The notes beneath the pieces were generated by a model, which was not told the origin of the DNA, did no database searches, and saw nothing but the letters and a program-made list of their open reading frames with translations. A stretch of DNA of 45,791 nucleotides from a virus, in IMG/VR virus record IMGVR_UViG_3300041411_000401, positions 1-45,791 of that record. One strand, given 5' to 3'. Below are positions 1 through 36,727 of the stretch, one piece after another (positions within the stretch are counted from its first letter, which is position 1; each line of letters opens with the position of its first letter). The position numbers and the translations under genes are program-made.

Positions 1-324
1 TTATATAGAGGGGCGCGCAGGTTCATAAACGGACACGACCTCGGCCGTCACTTTCCCCAGCACAATGATGCCTTCCATGCCCTCTCCGTCGATCGTCTCG
101 CCGTCTGCGGTGATGATACCTGAAAGAAACAGTCTGCCCAGTTGCGGGAACTCGCCCATCTGGAATACAACCTTGTCGCCTGGCACGGGCTTGAGTGACT
201 TGTCAGCCAGCACGAACCCGTCAGGCGTCTCAATCAAGATCATGTTGTTGCGGTGTGGCATCAGTACATCGTTCAGGTCTATGCGCCGCTCGATGTAATC
301 GGACGCTGGTGATGGAAAACCCAT
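1..324 (-). CDS. UmuD-like protein lacking the protease catalytic residues
   Basis: The first 17 residues (GFPSPASDYIERRIDLN) closely resemble the UmuD segment that follows the cleavage site, and the rest (107 aa) has the size and beta-rich look of the UmuD'/LexA peptidase fold. The Gly-Asp-Ser-Met serine motif and the later lysine of S24 peptidases are absent: an Ile-Glu-Thr-Pro-Asp stretch lies where the serine should be. It cannot be a working autoprotease. It resembles a UmuD' mimic that could bind UmuC, UmuD or RecA, which is inference. A GAGGT ribosome site precedes the ATG, 2 bp after the upstream gene's stop. Both genes sit behind a LexA box at 590-605, so SOS induction is expected. 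Confidence 0.75.
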   Translation of the reverse strand: MGFPSPASDYIERRIDLNDVLMPHRNNMILIETPDGFVLADKSLKPVPGDKVVFQMGEFPQLGRLFLSGIITADGETIDGEGMEGIIVLGKVTAEVVSVYEPARPSI

Positions 325-326
325 AG

Positions 327-566
327 TTACCTCACGTATCCCATGTTGCGTAACGACCAGGTCTTATTCTCGCTTTCCTCCGTAACCAGCTCGAAGAAGA
401 AATTCTGGTAACGCCGGATCCACCGGTTGCACTCTGCCAGCGTCCACGCGTGATTCAGGTCATCCAGACGTTTCTGGAATGCCGCAGTGGTGACAATCTG
501 CCGACCTCTGCCGTCCTTCGTTATCGCGCCAGTGAACGCCGCGTGTATGTCACTTTCTCTCGCCAT
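327..566 (-). CDS. Small SOS-operon protein of unknown function
   Basis: This 79-aa protein is the first gene after the LexA box at 590-605. It has a strong AGGAGG ribosome site and lies directly upstream of the UmuD-like gene, so the two probably form one operon. It has a VTTAAFQ segment followed by a Trp/Tyr-rich part (WTLAECNRWIRRYQNFF) and a conserved-looking RNMG end. From memory, similar prophage proteins have been labelled 'DNA polymerase V' in databases, probably from their neighbourhood; there is no polymerase domain here. The function is unknown, and a role in SOS or RecA/UmuC modulation is only suggested by position. Confidence 0.75.
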   Translation of the reverse strand: MARESDIHAAFTGAITKDGRGRQIVTTAAFQKRLDDLNHAWTLAECNRWIRRYQNFFFELVTEESENKTWSLRNMGYVR

Positions 567-33473: not shown

Positions 33474-34352
33474 TTAACCCTCCATCCAGGCTGGCATCTC
33501 AGTGGTGCCGTAGTTTTTGGCAGCGAAGTTTTCGTTGACCGCGCGGCGGGCTGGCTGAGCAGGTCGCGATGTCGCCTGCTTGTTCTGGTAGCTGAGTTTC
33601 TGGCTGGCAGTGATAAACCAGTTCTTCGGCTTTTCGTGGGTGAATTCAATATCGAGCTTCTGCAGTTCGTAGTTCAGGTCAATGTTCGGGTAGAGCAGCT
33701 TCCAGGCTTCGTAGTCCTTGTGATTTAGCCGAACGATATTTCCTTCGAACGCATAGCGACCTGACATTGCATGAACCGTTGCCTGACCCTCCCCTTCGCA
33801 AGTCGCGTCAGCGGCTTGGGTGTTATAGGGAATCAGGTTAAGGGAATCAGGAATCAGGTTAAGGGAATCAGCAGGATTTAAATTGTTCTCCACTGGTTCC
33901 TGCACCGTACCAGCACTGTGCTTTTCTGGTGCTGCTTTAATTTCAACAGGTTGAATCTCTTTTGCCTGTTCTTTTGCTGAATCAGTCTCGTGCTTTACTG
34001 GTGCTTGTTCCGGTTCAGGTTGTGCGTCGCATTGTTCTGGTATCTCGCTAGCCGCTTCTTTGCAGTGTGGATTCTGGTGCTTCTTCCAGTTAGCGATCTG
34101 GATATACGGGTTACCTTCTACTGAGTAGCGACTGATGAACTGACGCTCGTGAAGCTGATTAAGGCAGTCATCGCAGTCGACGTTATCGAATGGCAAAACG
34201 AGTGCTTTAATCTTCTTGGGGCGGTCATCTAAGCGACCTTCCTTATCTGCAATAGTCCACAGCCCAGCGAATAGCAGACGGGCAAGTGGTGAGCATTCGG
34301 CCAGTTCATCATTAGTGAAAAAGCCTGGTTTGATGTTTCTGGATCTGGCCAT
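33474..34352 (-). CDS. Replication initiation protein (O/DnaT-like)
   Basis: This 292-aa protein has an N-terminal winged-helix region (RSRNIKPGFFTNDELAECSPLARLLFAGLWTIADKEGRLDDRPKKIKALVLPFD...ANWKKHQNPH), a Pro/Glu/Lys-rich middle, and a C-terminal DnaT-like part (YEAWKLLYPNIDLNYELQKL...KNWFITASQKLS). It should bind the origin and recruit DnaC/DnaB. The middle contains two tandem seven-codon repeats (SLNLIPD, SLNLIPY) arising from iteron-like DNA at 33830-33871. The ATG at 34352 overlaps the previous stop (TAATG), with GGAG upstream. Confidence 0.87.
   Translation of the reverse strand: MARSRNIKPGFFTNDELAECSPLARLLFAGLWTIADKEGRLDDRPKKIKALVLPFDNVDCDDCLNQLHERQFISRYSVEGNPYIQIANWKKHQNPHCKEAASEIPEQCDAQPEPEQAPVKHETDSAKEQAKEIQPVEIKAAPEKHSAGTVQEPVENNLNPADSLNLIPDSLNLIPYNTQAADATCEGEGQATVHAMSGRYAFEGNIVRLNHKDYEAWKLLYPNIDLNYELQKLDIEFTHEKPKNWFITASQKLSYQNKQATSRPAQPARRAVNENFAAKNYGTTEMPAWMEG
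33828..33871 (-). repeat. Iteron-like tandem repeats, probable replication origin
   Basis: A 21-bp unit starting GAATCAGGTTAAG occurs twice with no mismatch, end to end (33830-33850 and 33851-33871). Each unit holds GAATCAG twice, giving four copies. An A+T-rich stretch (GGATTTAAATTG) follows. Location inside the initiator gene is as in lambda O, where the origin iterons lie. Confidence 0.68.
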
Positions 34353-35053
34353 TAAAAGCTCCAAGGTTTTCGCGGACCATAAGCCCCAGCCTCATTCAGC
34401 TGCTTCTCATGTTCGCGCATCATTTGAGAGGAATAAGATAGGAGTGGGGTTGCGCATGCTTTGTCGATAAGCAGCGAACAACCGCGGCGGTTTAGCTTCG
34501 TAATACTGTCAGCGGCAAGCTCAACCAGCCTTTTGATGGCTGCATACTTACAGCCAAAGACAGTGAGATTCAGATCGTCCAGTAAGCCATCAAGCGACCA
34601 TGGCTCTGACTTTTCCAAGCAAATGACATCGTGAGAGTCAGCAATCACTTCTAAAGGTGTGCTCCTCTCAACTAGCCCTTCGCCAGAAAAAACATCTTCA
34701 ATGATATCCAGAGAGTAATGAAAGAATTCACGGTTAGAACTGATCCGATACTCTTTCAAAATCTCATGAATTACCGATTCATGACGCTGTGGATTGTCTG
34801 AATAGTAAGCAGAGTGAACCTCAAATGGGAAAGGTATTCCCGTCCCCTGAGATATCTGCCCAGCTCGGATTTCAGGCTCGTTAGTGGTCATGCCGATCTT
34901 ATAAACATCAGGCATGTACTCATTTGAAAGAACGTAAACCCAGCCTGAAAGGCGCATATCCTTTGGCATTGGGAAGTTCTTTAATGTTTCAGTATTTATT
35001 GTGAGTGGCTCAGTGATGCTTTCACTGTTTACATATCCAGTTAGTCCTGGCAT
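34352..35053 (-). CDS. GIY-YIG family protein (T5orf172-like)
   Basis: This 233-aa protein has a GIY-YIG-related domain at about residues 37-112: GWVYVLSNE, VYKIGMTTNEPEIRAGQISQGTGIP, HESVIHEILKEYR and NREFFHYS, the T5orf172/MUG113 pattern, with catalytic-type Tyr, Arg and Glu. The rest is helical and unassigned. Such proteins in phages may be nucleases or defence-related. It is placed between cII and the initiator gene, an unusual insertion, and is preceded by a strong GGAGGAA. Confidence 0.82.
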   Translation of the reverse strand: MPGLTGYVNSESITEPLTINTETLKNFPMPKDMRLSGWVYVLSNEYMPDVYKIGMTTNEPEIRAGQISQGTGIPFPFEVHSAYYSDNPQRHESVIHEILKEYRISSNREFFHYSLDIIEDVFSGEGLVERSTPLEVIADSHDVICLEKSEPWSLDGLLDDLNLTVFGCKYAAIKRLVELAADSITKLNRRGCSLLIDKACATPLLSYSSQMMREHEKQLNEAGAYGPRKPWSF

Positions 35054-35501: not shown

Positions 35502-35729
35502 TTAAGCCGCTGTGTCGGCTGACTTCATGTATCGCTGCGGATAGAGAATCTGCATTTCGGTGATCTTCCCTTTGAAGAACCGGGACAATTTCTCTGCCGT
35601 TTCGAGAGAGGGAACCTGAATTCCCCTTTCAATCCGGCTGAGGTTTCCAACGTCAAGTTGCGTTGCGATGGCTACCTCGGAAATTGTCAGCTTTTTCTCT
35701 ACACGCATTTTCCTTAATGGTGTTGGCAT
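35502..35729 (-). CDS. cro: Cro-like repressor
   Basis: This 75-aa XRE-type helix-turn-helix protein (MRVEKKLTISEVAIATQLDVGNLSRIERGIQVPSLETAEKLSRFF) is divergent from CI and lies first in the early leftward operon. It shares the recognition helix VGNLSRIERG with CI (VGNLSRLERG), so both should bind the same operators. AGGAGGT precedes the ATG. Confidence 0.88.
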   Translation of the reverse strand: MPTPLRKMRVEKKLTISEVAIATQLDVGNLSRIERGIQVPSLETAEKLSRFFKGKITEMQILYPQRYMKSADTAA

Positions 35730-35743
35730 AATGCACCTCCTAA

Positions 35744-35758
35744 ATGCGCTATACGCAT
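35744..35758. promoter_or_regulatory. CI/Cro operator, OR site near cro
   Basis: ATGCG-CTATA-CGCAT, a 15-bp inverted repeat. It covers the start region of the cro promoter. Confidence 0.78.
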
Positions 35759-35785
35759 AATATGCGAATTGAAAAATATGCGCAA
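35757..35785 (-). promoter_or_regulatory. pR-type promoter for the cro operon
   Basis: On the minus strand the -35 TTGCGC (35780-35785) and -10 TATTAT (35757-35762) are separated by 17 bp. Operators overlap both elements, so CI or Cro binding would block it. Confidence 0.75.
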
Positions 35786-35792
35786 GGCGCTT
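35778..35792. promoter_or_regulatory. CI/Cro operator, OR middle site
   Basis: ATGCG-CAAGG-CGCTT, one mismatch from the 15-bp operator consensus. It overlaps the -35 element of the cro promoter. Confidence 0.6.
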
Positions 35793-35806
35793 TGCGTGTC
35801 ACGCAT
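35792..35806. promoter_or_regulatory. CI/Cro operator, OR site near cI
   Basis: TTGCG-TGTCA-CGCAT, one mismatch from consensus and directly next to the middle site. It lies close to the cI start, so it may govern cI autoregulation. The cI promoter itself could not be assigned. Confidence 0.65.
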
Positions 35807-35827
35807 AAAAAAGGTTGAATACACGCC

Positions 35828-36517
35828 ATGAAAATAGGCGACAAGATTAGACAGATTCGCAAAGCGAATAAGATGACCCTGACAGAACTCGCGTTGCGCG
35901 TGGATAGCGACGTGGGCAACCTGTCACGCCTTGAGCGTGGAATGCAGGGTTACAGCGATTCCCTTATACATAAGATTGCGGAAGCTCTCGCAGTTCCTGT
36001 ATCTGAGCTATTCTCTTCCAATGAAGCTAATGATACTGTAGATTCATACAGTATCGGTTCCATTATAAAAAAGGGGAGAAAAGATGTGTACAGGATTGAT
36101 GTTCTTGATGTTTCAGCAAGCGCCGGAGATGGTTCACCCTCGAAGGACGTCGTTGAAGTCATAAGGTCTATTGAATATGTTCCCGATCAAGCAAGGGTCA
36201 TATTCGGTAACCGGCCGGAGTCATCCGTGAAGCTTATTAACGTTCGTGGTGACAGTATGGAAGGCACTATTGAGCCAGGCGACCTGATTTTTGTCGACGT
36301 CGCTGTGAGCTGCTTCGATGGTGATGGTATTTATGTCTTTGACTACAACGGCGACATGTTTGTTAAGCGCCTGCAGAAGGTTAAAAGCGAACTGATCGTC
36401 ATATCGGACAACCCGCGCTATCGCGAATGGACTATATCCGCTGAAGAAATGGATATGCTTCATGTTGCCGGGCGCGTGATGCTTAGCCAATCCCAGCAAT
36501 ACCGCCGTCACGGATAA
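35828..36517 (+). CDS. cI: CI-like repressor with S24 autoprotease domain
   Basis: This 229-aa lysogeny repressor has an N-terminal helix-turn-helix (KANKMTLTELALRVDSDVGNLSRLERG) and a C-terminal S24 peptidase domain with S143 in GDSMEG and K180 in GDMFVK. The expected RecA-stimulated cleavage site is Ala99-Gly100 in SASAGDG. Prophage induction by DNA damage is therefore likely. A strong LexA-box sequence lies within codons 70-75, and a good antisense promoter lies about 10 codons further. The gene ends before a terminator at 36537. Confidence 0.95.
   Translation: MKIGDKIRQIRKANKMTLTELALRVDSDVGNLSRLERGMQGYSDSLIHKIAEALAVPVSELFSSNEANDTVDSYSIGSIIKKGRKDVYRIDVLDVSASAGDGSPSKDVVEVIRSIEYVPDQARVIFGNRPESSVKLINVRGDSMEGTIEPGDLIFVDVAVSCFDGDGIYVFDYNGDMFVKRLQKVKSELIVISDNPRYREWTISAEEMDMLHVAGRVMLSQSQQYRRHG
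36036..36051. promoter_or_regulatory. LexA-type box inside cI
   Basis: CTGTAGATTCATACAG fits CTGT-N8-ACAG, and the flanks extend it to TACTGTA ... TACAGTA, matching the outer half of the LexA consensus in all positions. The palindrome arms are 9 bp (GATACTGTA and TACAGTATC). It lies at +4 to +19 of a predicted minus-strand promoter. Confidence 0.65.
36062..36090 (-). promoter_or_regulatory. Antisense promoter candidate inside cI
   Basis: On the minus strand TACACA (36085-36090) and a perfect TATAAT (36062-36067) are 17 bp apart. Transcription would start near 36055, directly at the LexA-type box, and run antisense through the start of cI toward the operators and cro. Confidence 0.45.
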
Positions 36518-36536
36518 CCTCCCCTTTCGCAAATTA

Positions 36537-36559
36537 GCCCGCCACGTGCGGGCTTTTTT
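36537..36559 (+). terminator. Terminator after cI
   Basis: GCCCGC-CACGT-GCGGGC, followed by six T, lies 20 bp after the cI stop codon. Confidence 0.88.
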
Positions 36560-36651: not shown

Positions 36652-36666
36652 ATGCGCTTGACGCAT
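36652..36666. promoter_or_regulatory. CI/Cro operator, OL1-type
   Basis: ATGCG-CTTGA-CGCAT, a consensus operator. It covers the -35 element of the pL-type promoter. Confidence 0.8.
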
Positions 36667-36686
36667 ATGCGCTGTACGCATAATAT
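36658..36686 (+). promoter_or_regulatory. pL-type early promoter
   Basis: TTGACG (36658-36663) and TAATAT (36681-36686) are spaced by 17 bp. Seven bases later the transcript begins CATCAGCAGGACGC, resembling the start of lambda pL. Two tandem operators cover -35 and spacer. Confidence 0.82.
36667..36681. promoter_or_regulatory. CI/Cro operator, OL2-type
   Basis: ATGCG-CTGTA-CGCAT, directly next to the previous operator. It covers the spacer of the pL-type promoter. Confidence 0.8.
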
Positions 36687-36727
36687 CTATCCCATCAGCA
36701 GGACGCTGGCAGGCCACAGGGAACGGA

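Follow-up and report, generated by a model that had tools for sequence, protein, structure and literature searches.

A LexA box inside a lambdoid cI gene as the putative operator of a nested gene encoding the C-terminal domain of the same repressor

The window analysed here is a stretch of 45,791 nucleotides of viral DNA, corresponding to positions 1 to 45,791 of the IMG/VR virus record IMGVR_UViG_3300041411_000401. It carries a cI gene and, divergent from it, a gene for a cro-like protein with a helix-turn-helix (HTH) domain, and several smaller elements can be recognised within and behind cI (Table 1). Repeated GCG..CGC half-sites flank the gene at 35745-35810 and 36655-36690; they resemble right and left operators for CI.

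Table 1. Features of the cI region, in window coordinates; promoter elements, transcription start and terminator are predictions.
Feature	Position	Strand	Remarks
cro-like HTH gene, divergent from cI	35502..35729	-	HTH_3 1e-10
cI, HTH + S24 repressor, 229 aa	35828..36517	+	Pfam HTH_3 7.8e-9, Peptidase_S24 1.2e-19
Predicted -35 of nested promoter, TTCTCT	36011..36016	+	17 bp before TACTGT
LexA box; left arm TACTGT (36034-36039) is the predicted -10	36034..36053		TG precedes at 36031-36032
Predicted transcription start of nested gene, A	36046	+	Inferred from the -10; base kept in 35/36
Antisense sigma-70-like promoter, TACACA-17-TATAAT	36062..36090	-	Lineage-specific
Shine-Dalgarno of nested gene, GGGGAG	36073..36078	+	Present in 36/36 relatives
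Putative nested in-frame gene, GTG start at codon 87; CI C-terminal S24 domain, 143 aa	36086..36517	+	Pfam S24 3.7e-20
Intrinsic terminator 3' of cI	36536..36554	+	Predicted shared end of both transcripts

The product of cI has the hallmarks of an S24 CI repressor, namely the S24 fold, an intact Ala-Gly cleavage site (A99-G100) and an intact Ser143/Lys180 dyad, with all four columns invariant among 27 sequences. In an AlphaFold2 model of CI with a mean pLDDT of 79, the linker residues 66-83 have values below 50, and the strand that opens the C-terminal domain begins at residue 88, one after the start of the nested gene. Both the LexA box and the Shine-Dalgarno sequence fall in this predicted disordered linker. 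The nested protein would thus consist of the S24 domain with cleavage site and dyad, starting 13 codons before the cleavage site and devoid of the DNA-binding domain. Its fold is matched by lambda CI fragments that include the cleavage region (2ho0, 2hnf), by lambda CI on RecA filaments (8gmu), by LexA and by UmuD', the last being the closest sequence match in the PDB (1.4e-6). In two relatives (L202, KY271401; L209, MK448228) the public annotation of CI begins within the S24 half, although upstream of this point the reading frame stays open across the DNA-binding domain; annotations of cI in this group cannot be relied upon.

Codons 69-76 of cI contain the predicted LexA box TACTGTAGATTCATACAGTA, with its CTGT-N8-ACAG core at 36036-36051 and two arms of 9 bp each (GATACTGTA and TACAGTATC) separated by 6 bases. 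It is the only site of the window with three or fewer mismatches from TACTGTATATATATACAGTA, where the mean expected by chance is 0.00. Scored with a matrix built from 18 E. coli LexA sites, of which sulA was verified in the genome, the box reaches 23.3, and known E. coli sites range from 13.5 to 25.8. This score was reached by 0.025% of 20,000 recoded cI genes with the same protein and the same codon pool, and by none of 300 sequences generated with a first-order Markov model of the whole window. The match to the enterobacterial LexA consensus is that of a box of the SOS regulon and is kept in two clades. As far as sequence can confirm it, this is a real LexA box which ties cI to the SOS response. 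The original prediction had described a strong LexA match with 9-bp arms around CTGT-N8-ACAG in cI and was right on this point; the presence of so strong a box within cI also supports its proposal that the gene is linked to SOS by more than the RecA-driven cleavage of CI.

Conservation of the box was followed in relatives drawn from GTDB genomes and IMG/VR, of which 36 representatives with less than 97% DNA identity form group 1. Here, synonymous diversity within cI reaches its minimum at codons 69-75 (0.043 over the seven codons, median 0.514). The shared ancestry of the representatives was taken into account, for group 1, with a tree from which the box region had been left out; on it, third-position changes are rarest in the same codons (1.57 steps per codon, median 8.3), and the ratio of third-position to first-plus-second-position change is lowest there as well (0.31, median 2.93). 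At the same time the encoded residues vary, with codon 72 occurring as GAT, AAT, CAT or TAT and codon 73 as TCA, ACA, AAA or TTA. With wobble bases that stay fixed where residues are exchanged, the sequence comparison indicates that the box is under selection at the DNA level.

A second clade (group 2), of the ST64B/mEp460/Eeyore type, was found via the named phages ST64B, mEp460, Eeyore, phiNP and Flotzy and then extended in IMG/VR. Its members carry the box at the same place in cI with other linker residues, and synonymous diversity falls to 0.007 against a median of 0.516 among 34 representatives. In the scored set, all 40 representatives have the box at codons 69-71, with scores of 19.6-27.5. 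No box is present in CI relatives that share the S24 domain and have another N-terminal half or linker (L012, L072, L076, HK022, BTP1, SaltyDalty and ST15-VIM1phi2.1), three of which (L072, L076 and HK022) visibly lack the internal start too. The box was also looked for in the e14 repressor of K-12, where there is none.

On the sense strand, the box overlaps a predicted promoter, with its left arm TACTGT taking the place of the -10 element. A -35 element lies exactly 17 bp upstream in each clade, as TTCTCT, TTCTCA or TTTTCA in group 1 and mostly as TTTAC(A/C/G/T) in group 2. Third-position change is low at codons 61-62, with one step each against a gene mean of 7.7, and CTA is kept in 32 and TTC in 34 of the 36 members of group 1. 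The spacing is shared with E. coli sulA (TTGATC-17-TACTGT) and with further viral genes of the LexA type that a pattern search recovered, which read TTTACG-17-TGATACTGT. The layout is that of the SOS regulon, in which the box overlaps the promoter; 32 nt lie between the box and the GTG, and in many published SOS genes the distance from box to start is 6-105 nt. As a match to the promoter consensus the sense promoter is weak, scoring 5.6 on a simple matrix on which the antisense promoter in the window scores 10.7.

Downstream of the predicted promoter lies an internal ribosome site. The nested Shine-Dalgarno sequence has the strongest mean among the in-frame cI starts common to at least ten representatives (-6.4 to -12.2 kcal/mol), and it survives a shift of codon register, as in L057 (AAGGAGGG, read as AAG-AAG-GAG-GGT) and L060 (AAGGAG..ATG). 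Of the 36 members of group 1, 34 have GTG as the start at codon 87 and 2 have ATG, while the other valine columns mix all four codons. The nested start is GTG in 28 of 34 representatives of group 2. An own start with a Shine-Dalgarno sequence under selection, as is expected of a nested gene, is therefore found in all 36 members of group 1 and, with GTG, in this share of group 2. Four representatives of the second clade with a strong box (L343, L344, L347 and L360) have GTT at codon 88, and the internal start may be lost or moved in them; three of the four have a GTG at codon 96. The ST64B/mEp460 types have no GTG at the nested start; a possible start lies 3-4 codons earlier, with a weaker Shine-Dalgarno sequence. 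The full arrangement of promoter, box, Shine-Dalgarno sequence and start is present in Salmonella phage Fels-1 (L200). When viral contigs were queried with box, Shine-Dalgarno sequence and start, without any CI sequence, the hits comprised small genes of the SOS type as well as nested CI domains, the latter exactly 143 aa long.

Other LexA-type sites were also observed. A second strong box (22.1) lies at 588-607 of the window on the minus strand, ahead of a two-gene operon for a small protein (327-566, minus strand, phrog_3893) and a UmuD-like protein (1-324, minus strand, phrog_3469), which makes it an ordinary phage SOS operon. A LexA-like site at 35023-35042 (20.2) extends across codons 4-10 of a gene with a T5orf172 domain (34352-35053, minus strand); sites near this position in relatives score 12 to 22, and it could be either a genuine box within this gene or a by-product of the codons used. 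In many viral contigs (L084, L096, L105, L111, L117, L131 and others), a 59-aa gene (LMDIDNLSETVARIQFIADVSLIAHCKEDELKMAL...) lies behind LexA boxes with TTTACG-17-TGATACTGT, and these genes look like a family of LexA-controlled antirepressors.

It is established that LexA represses its target genes in the absence of damage and that these are transcribed in the SOS response. On this basis, and from the sequence features described above, we consider it probable that the box serves as operator for a promoter within cI, on the same strand and repressed by LexA, and that the nested 143-aa S24 domain is made in SOS, where it would likely act as an antirepressor. In the undamaged cell, LexA would occupy the -10 element TACTGT so that only full-length CI is produced. 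Once RecA filaments inactivate LexA, a short mRNA would run from about 36046 to the terminator behind cI, and translation from the internal GTG would give the C-terminal S24 domain of CI alone. CI dimerizes through its S24 domain, so that surplus copies of this domain would lead to dimers carrying a single DNA-binding domain, and such a pairing with full-length CI is the favoured and most likely action of the fragment. The nested product would then add to the RecA-driven cleavage of CI in the manner of a LexA-controlled antirepressor, making induction faster or sharper without being essential for it. In more general terms, we judge it likely that the linker of a large clade of lambdoid cI genes encodes a LexA-switched gene for the repressor's own dimerization and RecA-binding domain, an SOS-induced antagonist or RecA decoy, so that the induction threshold is set by two SOS inputs from one gene.

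Published work on Fels-1 bears on the proposed role of the nested product. Activation of a Fels-1 late-operon fusion by mitomycin was not prevented by lexA3 (Ind-) (PMC3121763), which suggests that in this phage the nested product modulates induction and is not essential for it. A dependence of prophage SOS induction on LexA cleavage, which characterises the class of LexA-controlled antirepressors, is thus not seen in the Fels-1 literature (PMC3121763), and the nested gene is said here only to work like a member of this class and is not filed as one. For the C-terminally 3xFLAG-tagged Fels-1 repressor FsoR, the same paper reports “cleavage products”, in the plural, after mitomycin C (PMC3121763, Fig. 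2D); one of these could be the nested product, for which a band 13 residues longer than the cleavage product is predicted. Peroxide and NO shock are accompanied in ST64B (L389) by high expression of STnc1310 and of two genes that lie downstream of CI (PMC7067206), and this could reflect read-through from the nested SOS promoter.

The same nested, LexA-controlled gene might also have the opposite effect, which we regard as a serious but unlikely alternative. Here the free domain would be a decoy for RecA filaments that slows the cleavage of both CI and LexA, so that a mild or brief SOS response spares the prophage. The nested product is nearly identical in extent to lambda CI(101-229), a fragment that binds to RecA filaments and in vivo holds back the SOS response in proportion to its level (PMC6363387), and the nested start 13 codons before a retained cleavage site would fit such a role, as does the induction of Fels-1 in lexA3 (PMC3121763). 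Also, Hex of phage 434, from an ORF overlapping cI, blocks cleavage of CI (PMC3564112). By contrast, the inhibitory lambda fragment is catalytically dead and monomeric, whereas the nested domain keeps the Ser/Lys dyad and would be turned over. The known LexA-controlled phage proteins that act on repressors are antirepressors, and this speaks against a decoy.

The original prediction had assigned the box to an antisense promoter whose LexA-controlled RNA, antisense to cI, would continue toward cro. On this reading, the transcript would cross the 5' half of cI and reduce CI synthesis in SOS. There is a precedent for such control in OOP of lambda, a known LexA-controlled antisense RNA. The predicted promoter does exist on the minus strand, where TACACA-17-TATAAT (36090-36062) is the best of four sigma-70-like matches in 1.4 kb, with 1.8 expected; the box lies just downstream of its start, and the promoter is kept in most close relatives. 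In the more divergent ones, however, the -10 is lost or weakened while the box is kept (L005, L007, L009-L011, L050-L063 and Fels-1-like phages), and the codons that contain it (79-81) undergo ordinary third-position change, with 6-7 steps against the gene mean of 7.7. The -35 element TACACA coincides, as its reverse complement, with the GTG-TA at the conserved in-frame start. Conservation of the antisense promoter is thus confined to the closer clade, on codons that are unconstrained, and the conserved Shine-Dalgarno sequence and GTG are left unexplained by it; these two elements and the geometry of the sense promoter had been overlooked. Antisense RNA as the main role of the box is rejected on conservation and is an improbable explanation of the site. 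An additional, lineage-specific antisense transcript in the window, likewise under LexA, is possible from the sequence because the antisense promoter is the better consensus match.

A still less probable reading is that the nested start is also used from the normal cI mRNA, in which case the domain would always be present and LexA would mainly adjust cI transcription as a roadblock. The Shine-Dalgarno sequence is indeed contained in the long mRNA as well, with a predicted accessibility similar to that in the short one (0.31 and 0.39). This reading does not explain why -35 and -10 elements with sulA-like spacing accompany the box, and removal of an intragenic LexA roadblock would raise CI in SOS, which is the wrong sign for a prophage. 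Occlusion of the Shine-Dalgarno sequence by a hairpin in the long but not the short mRNA was also considered and was rejected, as the predicted difference is small and inconsistent across relatives. It is highly improbable that the palindrome is kept as a hairpin of the cI mRNA or for a protein need (T-V-x-x-Y-S) and not for LexA: although the 9-bp arms can pair in RNA and T70 and S75 are nearly invariant, a hairpin is rejected because the loop positions A36042, T36043 and A36046 are kept as well (34-35 of 36) and because CTGG/ACAG variants, as in dinB, disrupt the stem yet retain the LexA site, and protein constraint alone is rejected because the wobble bases are frozen as residues change in a linker predicted to be disordered.

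The CI switch is the textbook example of prophage induction, and for cleavable repressors “RecA cleaves CI” counts as the whole SOS input. If the LexA-repressed nested gene is real, it would provide a second input in very common phages. A cI of the mEp460 type is found in 1032 of 5426 complete E. coli genomes (about 19%), the 86-nt stretch from promoter over box to start is present at 95% identity or more in 666 of the 5426, and box-bearing cI genes also occur in the Salmonella phages ST64B and Fels-1. A further consequence would be that the C-terminal “cleavage fragments” on blots of tagged repressors can in part be a separate product, and that surveys of the SOS regulon restricted to the upstream regions of genes overlook such sites.

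In the open-access papers searched, neither a LexA site or nested start in a phage cI nor binding or expression data for this box were found. Several known systems share parts of the proposed arrangement. Tum of 186, AntC of N15 and GfoA/GftA/GfhA of Gifsy are likewise LexA-repressed small phage genes, and the product here is expected to act on a repressor as theirs do. These antirepressors are unrelated proteins whose genes stand apart, beyond the immunity region, whereas the gene proposed here lies in frame within a cleavable cI and has the C-terminal domain of that repressor as its product; the Gifsy repressors targeted by GfoA/GftA/GfhA are not cleaved (PMC3121763). Hex of 434 resembles it as a second protein from the cI region that alters RecA-driven repressor cleavage (PMC3564112), but its ORF overlaps cI only partly, lies on the PRM mRNA and is not an in-frame CI domain, and no LexA box has been reported for it. 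The small SOS-type genes of other viral contigs have the same layout of a -35 element, 17 bp and TACTGT in the box. UmuD and its phage relatives are stand-alone LexA-controlled S24 domains with a short N-terminal arm and a cleavage site; unlike these, the nested domain sits in the repressor gene and is closer to CI. OOP RNA of lambda is a further case of phage control tied to LexA and is antisense to a lysogeny regulator, but this is cII and not cI, and the conserved elements here are on the sense strand. N-terminally truncated products of the same gene, made from an internal promoter or start and acting as antagonists, are known from the repressor forms of phiC31 and the inhibitor of Tn5, neither of which is a LexA-switched S24 domain of a lambdoid cI, as the nested product would be. 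To our knowledge, a LexA-controlled protein acting on a phage repressor follows a known logic, while an in-frame, LexA-switched C-terminal domain nested in a cleavable cI is new.
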